Part shown: positions 31,501 to 64,000 of the stretch, in pieces | Numbering within the stretch: the stretch's first letter is position 1 | How the letters are laid out: every line of letters begins with the position of its first letter | Assembly (NCBI GenBank): GCA_900318065.1 | Contig: ONIY01000023.1 | Span: 1-64,000 of the forward strand | From: an uncultured Prevotellaceae bacterium | GTDB taxonomy: Bacteria > Bacteroidota > Bacteroidia > Bacteroidales > Muribaculaceae | DNA length: 64,000 nt | Direction: 5' to 3' | The notes under the pieces: model-generated | The model's database searches: none | What the model was told of the DNA's origin: nothing | The model's input: only the letters and a program-made list of their open reading frames with translations | Translations under genes and position numbers: made by a program

Positions 31501-31550
31501 CACCCGCAATGAGCCCAGGAGGCTCAGCAAGGAAAAGAATTTATTATTAA

Positions 31551-31606
31551 CCACAGTGGAAAAATTTGGCTGCTTGCAACCACTTAAAAAAATGCTAAAA
31601 CTGCGA
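31551..31606 (+). ncRNA. SAM-II-type riboswitch aptamer
   Basis: AGTGG (31555-31559) and CCACT (31580-31584) form P1. The loop contains AATTTGG...TTGCAA and the 3' part has AAAAAAATGCTAAAACTG. This is the SAM-II layout: a short stem, a U-rich loop ending UUGCAA, and a trailing GCUAAAA strand that pairs into a pseudoknot. Downstream, GCTAAAA can alternatively pair with TTTTAGC (31625-31631) in front of metK, a plausible expression platform. The call is by eye against the known SAM-II consensus; SAM-V is an alternative. It precedes the gene for SAM synthesis, which supports feedback control. Confidence 0.75.
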
Positions 31607-31660
31607 ATCCCTCATAACAGCATCTTTTAGCGTTTTTCCACATTAAAACAATTTGGAAAG

Positions 31661-53691: not shown

Positions 53692-53730
53692 ACTGGTTTT
53701 GCGGTAGTAATAATGATTCATGGCGCCAGT

Positions 53731-53875
53731 GAAAAGTTGGCGCAATCGCATAGAAATGTTGAGATTTAGCCAGAAATCTCACGAAAAGTTGGCGCAATCG
53801 CATAAAAAAGTTGAGATTTAGCCGAAAATCTCACAAAAAGTTGGCGCAATCGCATTTTTTTATTAACTTTGCGCC
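53731..53875. repeat. Second 52-bp repeat array (2.8 units), overlapping the ATPase promoter
   Basis: 53731-53782 and 53783-53834 share AAAAGTTGGCGCAATCGCAT and GAGATTTAGCC(a)gAAATCTC (hairpin). A partial third unit (53835-53855) supplies TTGGCGCAA, inverse to TTGCGCCAA at 53869-53877. Confidence 0.9.
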
Positions 53876-53891: not shown

Positions 53892-55349
53892 ATGAAAGAA
53901 AACATCATTGGTCGCCAATTAGAGATAGACCGCCTGGAGCGATACATCGCGAGCAAGAAGTCGGAGTTTGTTGCCATCTATGGTCGCCGGCGAGTGGGCA
54001 AGACTTTTCTTGTGAAGGAATTGCTAGAAGAGCGCATGACCTTTAGAATTACAGGCAAAGAGAATGCCAGCACAAAAGACCAGTTGGAGAATTTTTTCTT
54101 CGCCTTTAATAAATATTCCCATAGCCAGCAAGTGCCCAAGACCTGGACACAAGCTTTTGAGATGCTTTCTTTGCTGCTGGAGCAAGCCCAGGATGTTGAC
54201 ACAAAAATAATCTTTATTGATGAGCTTCCCTGGTTTGACACCTACGGGTCAAAATTCATCAGCGCCCTTGAGCATTTTTGGAATGACTGGGCAGCTTATC
54301 GCAACGACATTAAACTGATAGTGTGCGGTAGTGCAACCACATGGATGCTGAACAATATTATCAACTCCCGTGGTGGTCTGCACAATCGTGCCACACACAC
54401 CATGCTGCTTGAACCATTTTCCCTCAATGAGACCGAGCAGTTTTTCAAGGCATTTGATTTCCCCTACGAGCGCCAGGAAATATTAGAATGCTACATGGCT
54501 GTGGGGGGAGTGGCCTATTATCTCTCTCTTTTTGAGCGCGAGAAAAGTGTGGCGCAAAATTTAGAGTCGTTGTGCTTCACTCGTGGAGGCGAACTGGTTG
54601 ATGAGTTTCAAAAGATTTTCAGGTCGTTATTTAAAAAGGCCGATAATCACATAGCCGTCATTAGTGCTTTGCAGAACAAAGGTATGGGACTCACACGCCA
54701 AGAGATAATCAAGGCTACAAACTTGACAAACAACGGCAACATGACGTCGCTGCTGCGCGAACTTGAGGAATGTTCATTCTTGCGCAGTTACACACCTTTT
54801 CAAAAGAGCAAAAAGGATAAGATGTACCAACTGATAGATCCTTTTACCTTATTCTATTTTCACTTTATGCACAACAATAACACCTTTCTCAAGGGTTATT
54901 GGACAAACATGGTTGCGACGAGCAAATATGCCTCATGGTGCGGATATGCCTTTGAGATTGTGTGCCTGAACCACCTGGAGCAGATAGTGAAAGCCCTGGG
55001 CATTGACGGCACCATAAGCACCATTTGTTCGTGGAGCTACACTCCACCCAAGCAGCTCAGAGACACTAATGATGACGACTTGCTGCAAGGAGCACAAATC
55101 GACCTCTTGATTGACCGCTCCGACAAGACCATAACAGTGTGTGAGATAAAATACTCTCAAAATGAGTATGAAATCACCAAGGGTTACAACGCCCATATGA
55201 CACAACGCCTGCGCACATTCAAGAAAGTCACAAAAACACGCAAGTCGGTTGTCCCCACATTCATCACACCTAATGGACTTCTAAATAACATCTACTCCCG
55301 CCAAATTGCAAGAACCGTAACGGGTGATGACCTATTTGTGTCGTTATAA
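53892..55349 (+). CDS. AAA ATPase with C-terminal DUF234 (PD-(D/E)xK-like) domain
   Basis: 485 aa. Walker A GRRRVGKT (31-38), Walker B KIIFIDELPW, sensor VCGSATTWM; a winged-helix-like middle with LTRQEIIKATNLTNNGN; a C-terminal DUF234 part with GAQIDLLIDRSDKTITVCEI followed by KYS, the PD-(D/E)xK nuclease-like pattern (D...E-x-K). This archaeal-type ATPase family is very numerous in Bacteroidales and is suspected to act in mobile-element or defence contexts, but no function is proven. It is a single gene directly behind the 52-bp repeats. Confidence 0.88.
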   Translation: MKENIIGRQLEIDRLERYIASKKSEFVAIYGRRRVGKTFLVKELLEERMTFRITGKENASTKDQLENFFFAFNKYSHSQQVPKTWTQAFEMLSLLLEQAQDVDTKIIFIDELPWFDTYGSKFISALEHFWNDWAAYRNDIKLIVCGSATTWMLNNIINSRGGLHNRATHTMLLEPFSLNETEQFFKAFDFPYERQEILECYMAVGGVAYYLSLFEREKSVAQNLESLCFTRGGELVDEFQKIFRSLFKKADNHIAVISALQNKGMGLTRQEIIKATNLTNNGNMTSLLRELEECSFLRSYTPFQKSKKDKMYQLIDPFTLFYFHFMHNNNTFLKGYWTNMVATSKYASWCGYAFEIVCLNHLEQIVKALGIDGTISTICSWSYTPPKQLRDTNDDDLLQGAQIDLLIDRSDKTITVCEIKYSQNEYEITKGYNAHMTQRLRTFKKVTKTRKSVVPTFITPNGLLNNIYSRQIARTVTGDDLFVSL

Positions 55350-58142: not shown

Positions 58143-58727
58143 TCATAATTTATTGATCTCAATTCCACCTTGCTTGCCGCATATGTAGTTGATGGGGTGG
58201 TCGATGCCCTGGTGCATCAGGCCGTTGATGATAAGGGGCTGCCCTGGAATGAAACCTTGACACTTGAAGGTGTCGCCCACGGCGAGTTTGGAGTTTTGTG
58301 ATTCCACCACCACATATTCGTTGTCACCATGATACTCAAGCGTCACCACTCGCCCCGGACGCCACCGCAGCGTGAGGCGTGCCCCAGGCTGCAGGGTGTC
58401 GCTGTCGATGTAGTGTGAGTCGAAGATTTGCGACGCGGCGGTATTGCTCAGGTTGTGGTAGAAGTCGTCCCAGTCGCGATACCCGGCATAGCGTGCGAGC
58501 ACGTTGAGAGTGAAGCGGCGGCTGGTGCGGTAGCCTTTAGCATATCCCCACAGGCGCTTGAGAGTGTTGGTGGAGATATATTCGCTGGTGGCAGTAGTGA
58601 TGGCAGCTGCAAGCATGTCGAAATCGCTGGGCAACTCCACCGTGCGACCAACCTTCTCCTCAACCTCTTTCTTAAGAGCATCAAGCGCATCTTGAACATT
58701 GGCTATTATGATAGTTTCTTTTACCAT
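58143..58727 (-). CDS. Regulator-like protein of unknown function (STNTLKRLWGY motif)
   Basis: 194 aa from ATG 58727 (MVKETIIIANVQDALDALKK). It has an N-terminal helix region, then LAAAITTATSEYISTNTLKR with LWGYAKGYRTSRRFTLNVLA RYAGYRDWDDFYHNL (HTH-like, a motif recurring in many Bacteroidetes proteins), and a C-terminal beta-rich part (LTLRWRPGRVVTLEYHGDNE...). I infer a sensory or DNA-binding role only from the HTH-like segment. A long intergenic region lies upstream. Confidence 0.65.
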   Translation of the reverse strand: MVKETIIIANVQDALDALKKEVEEKVGRTVELPSDFDMLAAAITTATSEYISTNTLKRLWGYAKGYRTSRRFTLNVLARYAGYRDWDDFYHNLSNTAASQIFDSHYIDSDTLQPGARLTLRWRPGRVVTLEYHGDNEYVVVESQNSKLAVGDTFKCQGFIPGQPLIINGLMHQGIDHPINYICGKQGGIEINKL

Positions 58728-59288
58728 TTTCAAAAAACATTTATCAGAAATCAAATCTTTACCTTCTCCTCTGCAAAGTTACAACTTTTATTTCACTATG
58801 CAACACATTTAAGGTGGGTTCTATAAATTAATTGAGTTGTATTTTGAATTTACGATGAGCAGATTTGAATTTAAATTTGAAGAATAGTAGCGGGCTACAT
58901 TTCAAGAATTCTTTTGCAATGCATAGCGTTTAACGAGGTTGAAATAGCATTTTCTCTTGTGAGAAATAAGGCCGCAACTGGGCTAAAGTGGCAAAAAAAA
59001 TCGCAGTTTAGCCCACTTGCGGGACCTGAAATTTAAGATAAACAGCTGCCAAACAGAGAGATGCAAATTTTGCTTATACATTATTTTTGTGATTAATGAT
59101 GAGTATGTGTTGACACGAGTTGACATCAGCAGCAATGGGTAATTTTTTACTGAGAAAAATCACATTTTCAGTAGGAAAATACCATTTTCTCATGTGATTG
59201 TTGTCTCCTTTTCCTCTAAAAAAACAAATAAGAACTCGAAAGGATAAGGTTTTTCCCAAGAAAAAGCATTATTTTGCGATATAAAAAC
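58728..59288. other. AT-rich intergenic region with hairpins
   Basis: No gene is seen. It includes the 51-bp palindrome at 58972-59022 and an inverted pair AATCACA (59158-59164) / TGTGATT (59193-59199) enclosing TTTTCAGTAGGAAAATACC. GC content drops sharply here, marking the left edge of the accessory island. Confidence 0.5.
58972..59022. repeat. 51-bp palindrome CCGCAA(c)TGGGCTAAA
   Basis: CCGCAACTGGGCTAAA (58972-58987) and TTTAGCCCACTTGCGG (59007-59022) are inverted with one mismatch each side; the loop is GTGGCAAAAAAAATCGCAG. It resembles in size and plan the 52-bp palindromes at 53589-53691. Confidence 0.8.
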
Positions 59289-59322
59289 AGAGACCGCCGA
59301 AACGCTTGAAAGAGAAGTAGGC
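59289..59322 (+). repeat. Conserved island element, copy 1
   Basis: AGAGACCGCCGAAACGCTTG then AAAGAGAAGTAGGC; 34 nt, one nt longer than the other copies. A -7-like TTATTTTG (59269-59276) lies 12 nt upstream. The reading frame ETAETLERE runs on to KMKKDDRIY. Confidence 0.85.
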
Positions 59323-59372
59323 TATGGATGCCAAAAAATGAAAAAAGATGATAGAATTTATTAAACAAGAAG

Positions 59373-60230
59373 ATGTTGTTAAACGATTTAAAGAAGATGC
59401 ATAATAAAAACAGACTACAAAGAAAATATAAGGCATTTTCTACACCTAAAGATCCATACAATGATCCAAGTGTCCCCCTCTATGACAGTAATAAAACCAT
59501 ACTTTATCGTTATGGAGGATACAAAACAAAGTATGTTGGCAATGACCCAATTCGTCCAAGATATGTTGCGCCATCAACATTAAAATATATCAAGCCTGGT
59601 GCTTTTAAGGACGTTGAGTCAAGACGGATTCCTGCAAAGATTGTCTTGCCTCCATGCATGGAGGAACTTGATGTTGATGCCTTGCCTTCGGTTTCTGAGA
59701 TTGATTTTCAGGGTCAACTCAAAGATGTGGTTGAGGGAGCTTTCTCTCATTTTGGAGATAATTTGACAATAAAAATAAGCGGTTTGTTTTCAGAAATCAA
59801 TCCAGAGGGACGAGAGGGTCTAAAAAAATGGTATAATGGAAATATTAGTAAGAGAGAGCTTGTTTTAAAAGCACCAGAGCCAATGGGTGGGAAATGTGAA
59901 GATGGTGTCATCACTTTGACCAAGGTGTTGCGGCTTGATGAGAAGTTGGCGATGGGCTGTGACTCTCGTCCAGCTCACTTTTGTGTTAATGCCACCAAGG
60001 AATTAAGCTTTGATACGGGACTAGGGGTTCCTATTCTTGTTGACACAGTGGTAATCGGTGGTGAGAATACCTATCTGCCTGGTGTATATTCTCCTCTTTA
60101 CTCCGAAGTGGAAGCGACAAGGATTCGTTTTGTGAGCAGAACCGAGAATCCCGAAAAGATTCTTGAATTGCTTGTGCATGAGCCTGAAGATGAGGTGGTA
60201 AAATTGCTCAAGAATGTTTACAAGAGTTGA
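59373..60230 (+). CDS. Island protein with BspA-like leucine-rich-repeat fragment
   Basis: 285 aa. No signal peptide. Residues about 65-130 resemble short BspA/LRR_5 repeats (STLKYIKPGAFKDV, ARIVLPPCMEELDVDA-like phrasing, DFQGQLKDVVEGAFSHFG). The remainder is unknown. AT-rich codons compared with the chromosome. First gene after element copy 1; ATG 59373 is used, ATG 59397 is an alternative. It may be an immunity- or surface-related protein, but no function is assigned. Confidence 0.7.
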   Translation: MLLNDLKKMHNKNRLQRKYKAFSTPKDPYNDPSVPLYDSNKTILYRYGGYKTKYVGNDPIRPRYVAPSTLKYIKPGAFKDVESRRIPAKIVLPPCMEELDVDALPSVSEIDFQGQLKDVVEGAFSHFGDNLTIKISGLFSEINPEGREGLKKWYNGNISKRELVLKAPEPMGGKCEDGVITLTKVLRLDEKLAMGCDSRPAHFCVNATKELSFDTGLGVPILVDTVVIGGENTYLPGVYSPLYSEVEATRIRFVSRTENPEKILELLVHEPEDEVVKLLKNVYKS

Positions 60231-60284
60231 AAAAAGAAGAAATAATCAACATATAAGTTGGCCAACTGTAACCTGAGAAACAGC

Positions 60285-60317
60285 AGAGACCGCCGAAACG
60301 CTTGAAAGGGAGTTGGC
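60285..60317 (+). repeat. Conserved island element, copy 2
   Basis: AGAGACCGCCGAAACGCTTG then AAAGGGAGTTGGC, differing from copies 3 and 4 at a single late position (GTTGG versus GTAGG). The weak -7-like TAACCTGA (60269-60276) lies 8 nt upstream. Confidence 0.85.
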
Positions 60318-60354
60318 TTTGGAATAATTCTTTAGATAATAAGAGTGATTGAAC

Positions 60355-60834
60355 ATGGACGCTAAATTTTTTATTTTCAACAAATTGATTAACATTATTG
60401 CTGATGGCTTAGAAACAGCTTTTAGTATGGGTTATTATCCAATAAAGTTTAAACCTAATCAAAAATTTGCTGTAGAAGGTAAATCCTTTTACATTGGTTA
60501 TGACGAAATGCTGAAATCTCACCGCTATTCGATTCATGCAATGATTGGTGAAAAATATGATGCAAATGATCCTGAGGTCGTTAGCTATCAGAATATGAAA
60601 GAGTTATTAATTGATGGCTGGGAGCCCCAACTGAATACTTTTCCCCAAAGAAGTGAGGCAAAAGCTGAATGGCTGAAATGGATGAAATCGGTTAATCCTT
60701 CAGATTTTGTTATTACATTCATAGAGAACTCACCGGACAATGTTTGGATTGACGATGAAAACTTTGCCCAGTTGCCACAATGGATGTTTATTGATGGTGG
60801 AAGCATTGCCGATGCTCTGAAAAATATGGTGTAA
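60355..60834 (+). CDS. Island hypothetical protein, 159 aa
   Basis: ATG 60355 (MDAKFFIFNKLINIIADGLE) was chosen over the TTG six nt earlier. It is acidic and Trp-rich (WLKWMKSVNPSDFVITFIEN, DEENFAQLPQWMFIDGGSIA), compact, and without signal peptide or membrane segment. Size and composition are like small immunity proteins, but no family is recognised. It is first after element copy 2; a small membrane-protein ORF follows 14 nt downstream. Confidence 0.65.
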   Translation: MDAKFFIFNKLINIIADGLETAFSMGYYPIKFKPNQKFAVEGKSFYIGYDEMLKSHRYSIHAMIGEKYDANDPEVVSYQNMKELLIDGWEPQLNTFPQRSEAKAEWLKWMKSVNPSDFVITFIENSPDNVWIDDENFAQLPQWMFIDGGSIADALKNMV

Positions 60835-60848
60835 GACCCCTAAAAGCT

Positions 60849-60992
60849 ATGTTCTCGGCAATTTTTTGGTTCATAGTAGGCTTTGTTGTCACCTTTGTAG
60901 TTGGTGGGATTGCTGTGCTTCTCATAGCGGGCATTGGCTACTTGTTGGTAAAGTTGCTAGAGTGGTTCTTCTTTGACTATCTTAATATCTGA
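60849..60992 (+). CDS. Small hydrophobic membrane protein (47 aa)
   Basis: ATG 60849 to TGA 60990-60992. Residues 4-36 are strongly hydrophobic (AIFWFIVGFVVTFVVGGIAV...), followed by WFFFDYLNI, so one or two transmembrane helices are likely. It sits between the 159-aa and 310-aa genes with gaps of 14 and 22 nt. Its position in a tight gene series supports it being real, but there is no homology evidence. Confidence 0.5.
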   Translation: MFSAIFWFIVGFVVTFVVGGIAVLLIAGIGYLLVKLLEWFFFDYLNI

Positions 60993-61014
60993 AAACAGTC
61001 ACATAGAGAGACGT

Positions 61015-61947
61015 ATGACACTAAAAGTATTAAAAGAGTTAATAAAAGGTAAGCGCATTGACCGCGTTGCTGGATTTTGTAATAGCTATGAGCAGATGAT
61101 TGACCGATGCCGCTTGGATGTTCACAATGGCTCAGTCGAAATCGACACCAGTGATGATGGTGACAATAGTGATCAGTTTGAGCCTGTGCCCAAAGTGATT
61201 GACCAACTGCTAGCAATGCCCAGCGAGTATGATGACTATCCTATCTTGAAATCTGGTTACGACAATAATAATGACAATGAACTACTTGTGCGTCAAGTAA
61301 TTTGCGTCAGGTTTGAGCACTCACAAAATGATAGTGTGGGAGTTTGCCTGCTCGGTCGTGAGCCAATTAGGTTTGTTGATGATGAAGATTTCCTTGACTT
61401 AGGTGATATGTATCATGTTGAGATTGTCATAGAAGACCCCAGAGCAAAGAATCTTAATGAGATATTCGATGATTTCATCCATGCCAGCTGCAATTGGTTC
61501 CGTCCTGATGAAAATTGCTACGACGAGGAAAATTGGAGTATCTACAGCAAGAAAAACTTCACGGTTATCACTTTCGTGACCGATGAGTCGTCAAGTTCGT
61601 CACTTATCGCTCTGATTGCAGGTGCTTTTGATGGCGTTTATTTTACCCGCACGCTATTAAACAAAGATGTTGATGAACGTCTAAGCAACGACAGTGAAGG
61701 CAAGTATTTCGGTCCTTTGCAAGCTGTTATTTTCCCTGCTTGTACTTATTTTTATGACAAAGACATCCCCCGTCTCAAGCCAGGATTGACAGCGATTGCC
61801 GGTTCTGGATGTTTTGTTAAAGAGTGCGCCAGCAAGGATGAGATGGAGCAGTTCATTGCCAGTCACAACCCCGACGAAGCTGTGGGCGACCTAGTGCGCC
61901 GCATCACCACACGCTACATCGACCCACTAACCCTTATCCTTGAATGA
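61015..61947 (+). CDS. Island hypothetical protein, 310 aa
   Basis: ATG 61015 (MTLKVLKELIKGKRIDRVAG) is preferred; the frame is open upstream to a TTG at 60973 overlapping the small ORF. It is acidic with aspartate-rich stretches (DTSDDGDNSDQFEPV, DEDFLDLGDMYHVEIVIEDP) and a C-terminal PACTYFYDKDIPRLKPGLTA. No signal, helix or motif of known catalysis is visible. The cytoplasmic, acidic character fits an immunity-like protein, but this is only a guess. Confidence 0.65.
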   Translation: MTLKVLKELIKGKRIDRVAGFCNSYEQMIDRCRLDVHNGSVEIDTSDDGDNSDQFEPVPKVIDQLLAMPSEYDDYPILKSGYDNNNDNELLVRQVICVRFEHSQNDSVGVCLLGREPIRFVDDEDFLDLGDMYHVEIVIEDPRAKNLNEIFDDFIHASCNWFRPDENCYDEENWSIYSKKNFTVITFVTDESSSSSLIALIAGAFDGVYFTRTLLNKDVDERLSNDSEGKYFGPLQAVIFPACTYFYDKDIPRLKPGLTAIAGSGCFVKECASKDEMEQFIASHNPDEAVGDLVRRITTRYIDPLTLILE

Positions 61948-62009
61948 CATTTATCATCAACCCCTTGGATTTATACTCAATTATAGCTATCTATGCAACA
62001 ATATACAAA

Positions 62010-62042
62010 AGAGACAGCCGAAACGCTTGAAAGGGAGTAGGC
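62010..62042 (+). repeat. Conserved island element, copy 3
   Basis: AGAGACAGCCGAAACGCTTG then AAAGGGAGTAGGC. An ATG 17 nt upstream (61993) opens a 15-residue frame MQQYTKETAETLERE that ends at the TAG inside the element. -7-like TATCTATG at 61988-61995. Confidence 0.85.
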
Positions 62043-62064
62043 AATATCTTAATAAAAATATTTT

Positions 62065-62286
62065 ATGAGCAAATTAATTGAATTCAACGGGAAGCCTCTT
62101 AGGATTGACCCCCAAGACAACACTCATCTTCAGATTTTTGCTGGAGGAGCTTGGTCTGTTTATTCTTTGTTAACCGAAGGTTTCGAAGACATTATGAACT
62201 ACGGCAATGAGATAATGGCTATAGGTAAAAATGGAAGGACATACATTTCTAGTTGTAGTGGACGAAGTTGGGTGCCCAGGTCATAG
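62065..62286 (+). CDS. Island hypothetical protein, 73 aa
   Basis: MSKLIEFNGKPLRIDPQDNT...FAGGAWSVYSLLTEGFEDIM...TYISSCSGRSWVPRS. It is small and soluble with several Gly/Trp/Ser-rich turns; no family is recognised. It is the only gene between element copy 3 and the hairpin at 62374-62416, 22 nt from the element. Confidence 0.6.
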   Translation: MSKLIEFNGKPLRIDPQDNTHLQIFAGGAWSVYSLLTEGFEDIMNYGNEIMAIGKNGRTYISSCSGRSWVPRS

Positions 62287-62373
62287 AAGCGACACAACCA
62301 TACACATCTGACTATCAAATCAATTTTGTACATTTCTGTGATCCATTGAATGTACGTAAAATTTTGGGCAAGT

Positions 62374-62416
62374 AATAAGCCCCCTTTAGAAAATGAAATT
62401 TTAGAGGGGACTTATT
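62374..62416 (+). terminator. Terminator-like hairpin before the LRR-DnaJ fusion gene
   Basis: AATAAG-c-CCCC (62374-62384) pairs with GGGG-a-CTTATT (62406-62416), with a TTTAGAAAA...TTTTAGA inner stem. It separates the 73-aa gene from the next one. Confidence 0.7.
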
Positions 62417-62449
62417 AGTAAAAAGCAAATCATCACAAATAACCCTATT

Positions 62450-63736
62450 ATGAACAATAATGTACATCCCTTGCAAGAAATATCATTAACCGCCGAAGAG
62501 ATTCCCTTCACAGTTACTGAATTACGTTATAAATACAATGAAAAAACTGACAAATTCGAGTCGTGGAATATTGACTCTGAAAAAACCACGACTTACTATG
62601 CTGTTCTATGGCATAACATCGTGTTTATTCGTGAAAAAGGCAAGTATAAATATTCAGCTTTTTGTGGTAGATCAATTAATGATCAATATAAATATGATGT
62701 TGATTTTGGAAAGAGCGTAATTCATAATTTCCCTTTTAGTAGAAACTTGCCTATTACTGACGATTATCTGGTTGTTCCTTCTCGTATAAATAATATGCCT
62801 ATCACGGATATTCAAGTAGACAATTGTAGATCTCGATATCTAATTATTGGTTCAAATATGGTCGAAACAGTTTGGTTTTGGAATTGTCAAAACTTGGAAT
62901 ACTTTATAGGTGAAGCCAGTGAAGTCTGGATTTGCAAAAACGGTAAAAACAAACTCAATTATTTAAAATTTTTAAAGAACAAAGCTAGCATTACTAGCAA
63001 TTCTTATCGAAACGGATTAAAAGAAATCGTATTATCATGTAAAGATGAATTTATAGGGATGAATATGTATCATAGAAGTGGTATCGATACTTTTCCTTTG
63101 TTGCTTGATGTATATTCTTTAGAGAAAGATCCACCAGAATGCTACAATCTTTTTCAATGTAGTCTGGATGATTATAATGTAAACACACTTAAATATGGTA
63201 CACTTCATGTACCTCAAGGGGCCAAGCGTTATTATCAAGTGGCATATAGTTGGAATCAGTTCCAAAACATTGTAGAATTCACGCAAGAAGAGATTAATGA
63301 GAAACTTGCAGAATATGAACGCAAAGAGAAGGAGATTCTAGACGAGGCATATAAAATATATAAGGAGAACGAGGAATTCTTGGGTCTTTTGGAAGTTATA
63401 AAAAAATCCAAAAAAGAGCCTGCAATACCAGAATATTTAGTACGTCTTGATGAAGAAGGGTTAGACTTAGCGTATTTGGTTGATGTTGCTCCCAAGATAT
63501 TGCATGAAGGTGGTAAAATCATTGTTCCGACTCTTGATGGAAAAATAAGAGTCACCATCCCTCCTGGAACTATTAACGGACATTTATTTCGTGTAAGAGG
63601 TAAAGGACTAAAAAATGATGAGACCAAGGAGGTTGGGGATTTTTTTCTACTTATTCATGATGAAAGTATTGCTATAGAATCAAGAGATGCATTGGAATTT
63701 TTCGATAAATATAACAAAAAAAGTAACAGTCAATAA
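62450..63736 (+). CDS. BspA-like leucine-rich N-terminus fused to a coiled coil and DnaJ C-terminal domain
   Basis: 428 aa. Residues about 100-270 have BspA/LRR_5-like features ending LKYGTLHVPQGAKRYYQVAY SWNQFQNIVEF, the usual close of such repeats. Residues about 275-320 are a Glu/Lys-rich coiled coil (EEINEKLAEYERKEKEILDE). Residues about 354-405 match a DnaJ C-terminal substrate-binding half (IIVPTLDGKIRVTIPPGTIN GHLFRVRGKGL, then GDFFLLIH). No J-domain or zinc-finger is present. No signal peptide is seen, so it may be cytoplasmic. The fusion is unusual. It is the second gene after element copy 3. Confidence 0.78.
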   Translation: MNNNVHPLQEISLTAEEIPFTVTELRYKYNEKTDKFESWNIDSEKTTTYYAVLWHNIVFIREKGKYKYSAFCGRSINDQYKYDVDFGKSVIHNFPFSRNLPITDDYLVVPSRINNMPITDIQVDNCRSRYLIIGSNMVETVWFWNCQNLEYFIGEASEVWICKNGKNKLNYLKFLKNKASITSNSYRNGLKEIVLSCKDEFIGMNMYHRSGIDTFPLLLDVYSLEKDPPECYNLFQCSLDDYNVNTLKYGTLHVPQGAKRYYQVAYSWNQFQNIVEFTQEEINEKLAEYERKEKEILDEAYKIYKENEEFLGLLEVIKKSKKEPAIPEYLVRLDEEGLDLAYLVDVAPKILHEGGKIIVPTLDGKIRVTIPPGTINGHLFRVRGKGLKNDETKEVGDFFLLIHDESIAIESRDALEFFDKYNKKSNSQ

Positions 63737-63803
63737 TAAGTAGTCAATATTTACAGACTTAGCTGCCACACATTTTTATACACCCTATATAATTATTAAC
63801 CAA

Positions 63804-63811
63804 TAACTTTG
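63804..63811 (+). promoter_or_regulatory. -7 box upstream of island element copy 4
   Basis: TAACTTTG, a full TAnnTTTG match, puts the transcription start just at or before the element, so the element would be at the mRNA 5' end. Confidence 0.5.
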
Positions 63812-63822
63812 TGAATAATAAA

Positions 63823-63855
63823 AGAGACCGCCGAAACGCTTGAAAGGGAGTAGGC
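63823..63855 (+). repeat. Conserved island element, copy 4
   Basis: AGAGACCGCCGAAACGCTTG then AAAGGGAGTAGGC, 11 nt after a TAACTTTG -7 box (63804-63811). Compared with copy 3 there is one base difference (CC versus CA). Confidence 0.88.
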
Positions 63856-63878
63856 ATAATTTCAAAAGCAATACTATT

Positions 63879-64000
63879 ATGACACATGAAATGGGTGAAT
63901 CTCTTATTTATTCCTGGCTACGCCATGTGAAAGGATGCCAAATCGTTCAAACTAATTGGACAGCCTCTCCCACATGGGACATGAGATACTTTATGGAAGC
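63879..64000 (+). CDS. Island protein, N-terminal 40 residues only
   Basis: ATG 63879 begins MTHEMGESLIYSWLRHVKGC and the frame is open to the window edge (QIVQTNWTASPTWDMRYFME). It is 24 nt after element copy 4. No family is recognised; the gene continues beyond the window. Confidence 0.6.
   Translation, partial: MTHEMGESLIYSWLRHVKGCQIVQTNWTASPTWDMRYFME

Follow-up and report, generated by a model that had tools for sequence, protein, structure and literature searches.

A short element repeated near one end of a 64,000-nucleotide (nt) stretch of DNA appears to serve both as the 5′ leader of separate mRNAs and as the left border of exchangeable, AT-rich cargo genes; we put the probability of this assignment at roughly 0.83. 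The stretch comprises positions 1 to 64,000 of contig ONIY01000023.1 (C15 below; GenBank assembly GCA_900318065.1) from an uncultured Prevotellaceae bacterium, a gut organism of rumen type, and is referred to throughout as the window. The conserved leader unit is about 35 nt long and is predicted to form an H-type pseudoknot RNA. Transcription probably starts at the element or a few nt before it. Sequence comparison between genomes established the sequence of the element, its position, its covariation, its conservation outside arrays and the switching of cargo behind it.

A preliminary description of the window, made from its letters alone, had noted four near-identical repeats at 59289, 60285, 62010 and 63823. 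A search with the pattern AGAGACCGCCGAAACGCTTG, allowing up to 3 mismatches, returned exactly these four (the match at 62010 has 1 mismatch) and 0 matches in 100 shuffled sequences. The repeats sit in an AT-rich island, as that description had it: the GC content is 37.4% for 58755–64000 vs 52.9% for 1–58700. The distances from the end of the element to the start codon (51, 38, 23 and 24 nt for copies 1 to 4) also agree with those given there. The −7-like sequence said to precede each copy is present as an exact TAACTTTG before copy 4; before copies 1 to 3 it is approximate, judged by eye. A fifth copy lies beyond the window, and the contig ends at 65628, leaving the window's own array incomplete. 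A 23-base pattern for the subtype, with up to 3 mismatches, had no further match in the 2.99-Mb assembly (93.85% complete). The copies are listed here, with bit scores for copies 1 to 4 from model R1, which was itself built with each of these copies.

59287 to 59322, plus strand: leader copy 1, with one inserted base before GTAGG; 51.0 bits.
60283 to 60317, plus strand: leader copy 2, with GTTGGC replacing GTAGGC; 55.1 bits.
62008 to 62042, plus strand: leader copy 3; 62.8 bits, with a below-cut-off match to RF02914.
63821 to 63855, plus strand: leader copy 4; 62.2 bits, with the exact −7-like sequence upstream.
64861 to 64895 of the contig: leader copy 5, about 1 kb past copy 4 and outside the window.

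The element is not confined to this locus. The DNA pattern of the subtype was found in 62 stretches of an 84,980-species genome collection; their titles all name Bacteroidales taxa, except one given only as ‘bacterium’, and many are from ruminant gut samples. The same pattern had 0 matches in viral contigs, and carriage of the element by phage was set aside on that count. Model R1, which holds both the array and the canonical subtype, matches either of them in 86 of the 101 genomes of the genus, and in 47 of the 48 with at least 90% completeness and at most 5% contamination. Nor is the element placed at random with respect to genes. The 63 loci fetched hold 74 elements, with an open reading frame (ORF) downstream of 71; the three elements lacking one were dropped from the gap measurement, which gave a median of 25 nt to the ATG with a 10–90% range of 22–35 nt. 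A set of 94 elements of non-CGCT type has a median gap of 21 nt to the first ATG. The preliminary description had proposed listing the genes 3′ of the copies in relatives; those behind the 71 elements fall into 24 groups by BLAST linkage, some of them built on short ORFs. An exact TANNTTTG occurs within 40 nt upstream of 39 of the 74 elements vs 3.0% of shuffled flanks, and 38 of these 39 motifs sit 2–17 nt before the element. These 74 elements are not independent, as 27 precede one orthologous gene. The −7 motif just upstream and the steady distance to the start codon place the element at the predicted 5′ end of the mRNA, in agreement with the preliminary description; the leader reading is further supported by the pseudoknot with its compensatory changes and by the relation to a cis-regulatory Rfam family.

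Conservation was profiled for leaders located outside arrays, before a gene for a small acidic protein. Sixteen of the 27 group members were used, namely those starting M[DE]EEM and having full flanks; 11 were left out. Across these 16 orthologous leaders conservation reaches 97% in the element, compared with 67% in the promoter flank and 52–55% in the remainder. In six genomes (G187, G222, G237, G242, G283 and G307) the sole R1 match precedes this gene, thus gene conversion among array copies cannot explain the conservation there. We conclude from these alignments that selection acts on the element itself.

Pairs of aligned loci show two kinds of switch in gene content at the element: in one, the upstream DNA is identical and the genes after the element differ; in the other, the upstream DNA differs and the element changes along with the genes. 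Copy 4 of the window and its cargo are 95% identical to genome G040 from the first base of the element, and no similarity between the two was found upstream of it. In G598 the same element and cargo, 90% identical, lie behind a different set of fixed (chassis) genes that includes a WYL-type regulator; the WYL assignment was made by Pfam in the relative L264. Conversely, loci L251 and L259 are 97% identical over 0.9 kb up to the end of the element, are followed by unrelated cargo and regain 94% identity where the next fixed ORF starts, at its ATG. Among 15 loci chosen for holding elements (alignments of at least 200 bp and at least 78% identity), 16 of 97 interior ends of homology have an element no more than 25 nt away in each of the two loci, where such positions make up 0.4–5.6% per locus. 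The first genes behind elements have a median GC content of 36.9% (n = 28) vs 48.2% for other genes (n = 201) in 17 loci. The idea of a recombination patch or cassette border is borne out by the pairs in which homology begins or ends at the element. Leader and cassette junction had been offered as alternatives; the evidence fits both at once. We note that in L261 (6977–8071) and L264 (10313–11398) a reverse-oriented gene ends against the element, as if the cassette had been inverted.

A scan of 58700–64000 with Rfam (E ≤ 5) gave four matches, one of which lies on the element and is to RF02914 (DUF805b, cis-regulatory); the other three, to sroH and to two families of snoRNA, are apparently chance matches. 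RF02914 aligns at 62008–62043 over all 35 model positions with 17.9 bits. Its gathering cut-off of 35.6 bits is not reached by the array copies. In the related array locus L010/L079 the element at L010 1498 also scores 17.9 bits, and a second copy 266 nt further on, at 1764, scores 25.3 bits, the best among copies in related array loci. The genome that the window comes from holds one canonical copy above the cut-off, at C72:6150 with 53 bits. Of 198 Bacteroidales genomes, 93 have an RF02914 match over the cut-off; of 14 control genomes, 0 do. Elements of the genus are of the types CGCTT (all five array copies), GAATCGCTT and canonical AATCCT, and intermediates exist: G122:C3:10935 (23.3 bits) and G272:C256:4662 (18.8 bits) combine the CGCTT strand of the subtype with the canonical GGAA loop. 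The array element shares with the DUF805b RNA (clan CL00115) its length, the order of the pairing strands and a GCCGAAA...GAGTAGGC core. Both lie just upstream of start codons, the cis-regulatory location before coding genes that marks RF02914, and both occur in the same bacterial order. The array copies differ in having P1 strands almost fixed as AAGAG and CGCTT and in heading exchangeable cassettes. We therefore read the element as a divergent subtype related to the DUF805b RNA; it is classed as related and not as a member because its score fails the RF02914 cut-off, and the tie is made despite the low scores because of the intermediates, the common pseudoknot and the same position. No publication on the DUF805b family turned up in the literature searched. 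RF02913, considered as a possible sister family, is pemK and had no match.

The pseudoknot consists of P1 (columns 3–5 with 18–20) and P2 (columns 10–12 with 37–39). Alignment A1 holds 86 distinct non-CGCT elements, gathered by pattern from the fetched loci (many fetched as RF02914 matches), with the single GTT row and any repeated sequence removed. In A1, 95.9% of the P1/P2 cells are paired (74.3% when shuffled), 110 cells are changed on both sides (31.8 shuffled) and the covariation is 0.576 (0.169 shuffled); none of 500 shuffles was as high on pairing, both-side changes or covariation, and sliding the partner strand left at most 54% paired. The three P1 pairs are changed on both sides in 47, 4 and 37 rows, and the outer P2 pair forms in 76 of the 86 rows, 22 of them changed on both sides. 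Alignment A6 holds 83 distinct elements of the genus fitted to R1. Here 95.7% of cells are paired vs 93.2% shuffled (0/500 as high), 14 cells are changed on both sides vs 1.7, and slid controls reach at most 73%. By stem, P1 is paired in 92.3% of cells and P2 in 99.2%. Ten of the 14 both-side changes lie in canonical-type rows and four in the 73 CGC-type rows. In the latter type, 3 of the 57 rows with an outer P1 pair have G-C there in place of A-U, and one switch from G-C to U-A is seen at the outer P2 pair. The structure of the subtype thus rests on homology as its first basis and on its own few compensatory changes as its second. The covariation check proposed in the preliminary description gave compensatory changes in both element sets, and P1 together with the GCC/GGC pairing, a feature of RF02914, shows such change, subject to the leanings of the alignments. 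P1 is near-invariant in the subtype though freely changing in canonical copies, which hints at a sequence-specific partner. An internal CUU/GGG hairpin suggested by single-strand folding was rejected; it has no compensatory change and is paired less often than shuffled.

Several points weigh against our assignment. Homology ends away from elements in 81 of the 97 cases, which are not independent of one another, and crossovers are not placed to the base, because every cassette carries the element and alignments run into it. The pattern used to gather A1 itself demanded the two inner P2 pairs, so that the weight of A1 falls on P1 and the outer P2 pair. The outer P2 pair is broken in 10 of the 86 rows, seven of which are all the copies from one contig (G413:C350), and many rows were located by the RF02914 model, which carries P1. 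For A6, two measures are not clear of the shuffles (17/500 and 166/500), and R1, to which it was fitted, holds P1 and two canonical rows. In a near-invariant set (A2) the single pair changed on both sides is due to these two canonical rows, and the outer P1 pair forms in 57 of the 73 CGC-type rows. Finally, window copies 1, 2 and 4 have no reported RF02914 match at E ≤ 5, and the array copies that are reported score 17.9–25.3 bits against the cut-off of 35.6.

A mechanism consistent with these observations can be outlined. The leader usually ends about 22–35 nt before a start codon, close to where an initiating ribosome would have its upstream edge. The pseudoknot may control how translation starts or how the mRNA decays, responding to a trans factor or small molecule that the leader's genes have in common. 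The chassis genes (the divergent helix-turn-helix (HTH)-like gene, a 310-amino acid (aa) protein and Ser/Thr kinases, or in other loci a WYL regulator) stay, and it is the cargo behind elements that is replaced. Exchange most likely proceeds by homologous recombination, both between copies of the leader and between the flanking chassis genes, and selection would retain cargo that arrives behind a working leader. More tentatively, and in our view rather less probable than its converse, the leader pseudoknot may act as a plug-in socket: accessory genes that recombine into the place after the leader would join a common regulon, and one small RNA would both control foreign AT-rich cargo and guide where it is exchanged, without a dedicated recombinase. 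Were the leader such a socket, whatever ligand or partner it has would govern a whole set of accessory genes of rumen bacteria, possibly defensive ones, and the common control signal would become directly testable. An RNA family known here as a motif acquires an anatomy, a set of genes across the genus and a connection with gene turnover.

The element could instead be a site-specific recombination site, its placement before genes being a by-product of cassette insertion; we consider this improbable. Such a site, integron- or rAID-like, would account for direct repeats bordering unrelated, co-oriented AT-rich genes and for cargo that switches at the element. The recombinase-associated acquired interbacterial defence (rAID) arrays of Bacteroidales are described (PMC12247911) as co-oriented AT-rich genes arrayed with a conserved intergenic motif, a layout that the array here resembles. 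Two tyrosine recombinases lie past the last mapped array gene of one other array (L260), at 0.75 and 2.3 kb. However, conservation of the element extends to a gene outside arrays, including the six genomes with their sole match there, its distance to the start codon is steady and compensatory changes occur across the order. In four complete related arrays (G040, G156, G135 and G292, loci L251, L259, L265 and L266), the 24 proteins from ORFs of at least 80 aa match 10 Pfam families, with no recombinase, integrase or immunity family among them. On the gene content of these related arrays, the one here does not appear to be a rAID as defined, whose tyrosine recombinase lies upstream; the chassis also differs, consisting of kinases, WYL or AAA proteins. 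The same absence of immunity families leaves the earlier comparison with toxin/immunity arrays unsupported. SUKH (PF09346) had no match in the window's genome at E ≤ 1e-6, and a SUKH search for a comparison rAID array found it in 8 of 149 genomes, with no two on one contig among the 11 matches listed. Integron cassette arrays are similar in outline, a short repeat bordering unrelated exchangeable genes. They differ in that no integrase family occurs in the four complete arrays, and the repeat here is a predicted 5′ leader that is also kept ahead of a gene lying outside arrays.

It is less probable still that the element is a DNA operator, or an extended promoter, for a common transcription factor and not an RNA element. 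Such a site would adjoin the −7 motifs as observed, near-invariance of the genus subtype before unrelated genes is what a protein site would show, and a divergent HTH-like gene lies beside several arrays. The element is located downstream of the −7 motif, however, and the changes on both arms that keep pairing in canonical relatives are not predicted by DNA binding; the CGC-type rows add four compensatory cells. There is very little to recommend an encoded peptide, or a gene tail reused as a junction, an idea that arises from the ETAETLERE reading in one frame. Most copies listed do read so in the same frame, but the frames upstream are short, unrelated and without a common start, the length differences of the canonical relatives are not multiples of three, and the changes track base pairing; the reading noted earlier appears spurious.

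The leader and cassette assignment places the following genes of the window in fixed and cargo classes. The cargo genes have a GC content of 33.0–41.0% and the fixed genes 41.0–53.2%, the rAID criterion being co-oriented genes below 41%.

58143 to 58727, minus strand: HTH-like protein of 194 aa, motif STNTLKRLWGY, divergent from the array; no Pfam match over cut-off.
59373 to 60230, plus strand: cargo ORF of 285 aa; no Pfam match; 34.6% identical over 260 aa to a cargo protein of L194.
60355 to 60834, plus strand: cargo ORF of 159 aa; no Pfam match; GC 35.6%.
60849 to 60992, plus strand: small ORF of 47 aa, membrane-like by eye; fixed part, homology to relatives resuming at its ATG.
61015 to 61947, plus strand: chassis protein of 310 aa (MTLKVLKELIKG...); no Pfam match over cut-off.
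62065 to 62286, plus strand: cargo ORF of 73 aa; no Pfam match.
62450 to 63736, plus strand: cargo ORF of 428 aa with a C-terminal DnaJ_C domain (PF01556); GC 33%.
63879 to 64000, plus strand: cargo ORF of 318 aa that runs beyond the window; with its element, 95% identical in G040.

The 310-aa chassis protein is 39–95% identical in seven related loci, and relatives of the 194-aa HTH-like protein flank the arrays of G040, G369, G156, G292 and G135. The HTH-like family, with its STLKRLWGY-type motif, has seven members in the genome, including that of the window (58143–58727) and those at L217, L218 and L220–L222; the five outside C15 and C72 have genes resembling Ser/Thr kinases, by eye, within about 1.5 kb. 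Fixed genes in the arrays include Ser/Thr kinases, WYL regulators, AAA ATPases and the HTH-like protein. Most cargo has no known family, and among the best 25 of 31 Pfam families matched by array proteins there is no immunity family; the protein set excludes sequences that contain unread stretches and a few ORFs truncated where a locus ends. One cargo protein in relatives belongs to a PD-(D/E)XK nuclease family and another has a weak HNH match below cut-off. BspA-type repeats are found in 3 of 82 array proteins, 2 of these in the four complete arrays. A defence role of the cargo is plausible. The PADLOC matches among those listed (the best 25 of 34 families for one kinase and the best 25 of 79) are to kinase models, judging by name, and were not counted as evidence of a defence system.

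Genes headed by DUF805b likely include peptide products, as suggested by peptide rows outside the genus with a GG leader and by a 52-aa peptide at C72. At the latter locus (L066, G000:C72:6150-9215) the canonical leader (53 bits) heads this cysteine-bearing GG peptide; an 885-aa protein with radical-SAM/SPASM matches below curated cut-offs follows, and a divergent HTH-like gene adjoins. In four loci from other Bacteroidales families (L114, L115, L118 and L120) canonical DUF805b heads rows of short peptides that share an N-terminal MRKLKLSLKKEIISDLE...GG or carry a similar GG leader. In L007, L011 and L028, solitary copies of the element have the L19-Flavobacteria ribosomal leader matched nearby, with 31.5 bits (at the cut-off) or 28.4 bits (just below it).

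Elsewhere in the window, a further RF02914 match at 53812 (17.9 bits) was set aside as it falls, by eye, in an imperfect tandem repeat. Such repeats (AAAAGTTGGCGCAATCGCAT...) occupy 53700–53870, just before an ORF at 53892 that is AAA-ATPase-like by eye. A SAM-II riboswitch is present at 31550–31608, with 63.9 bits, over the Rfam cut-off.

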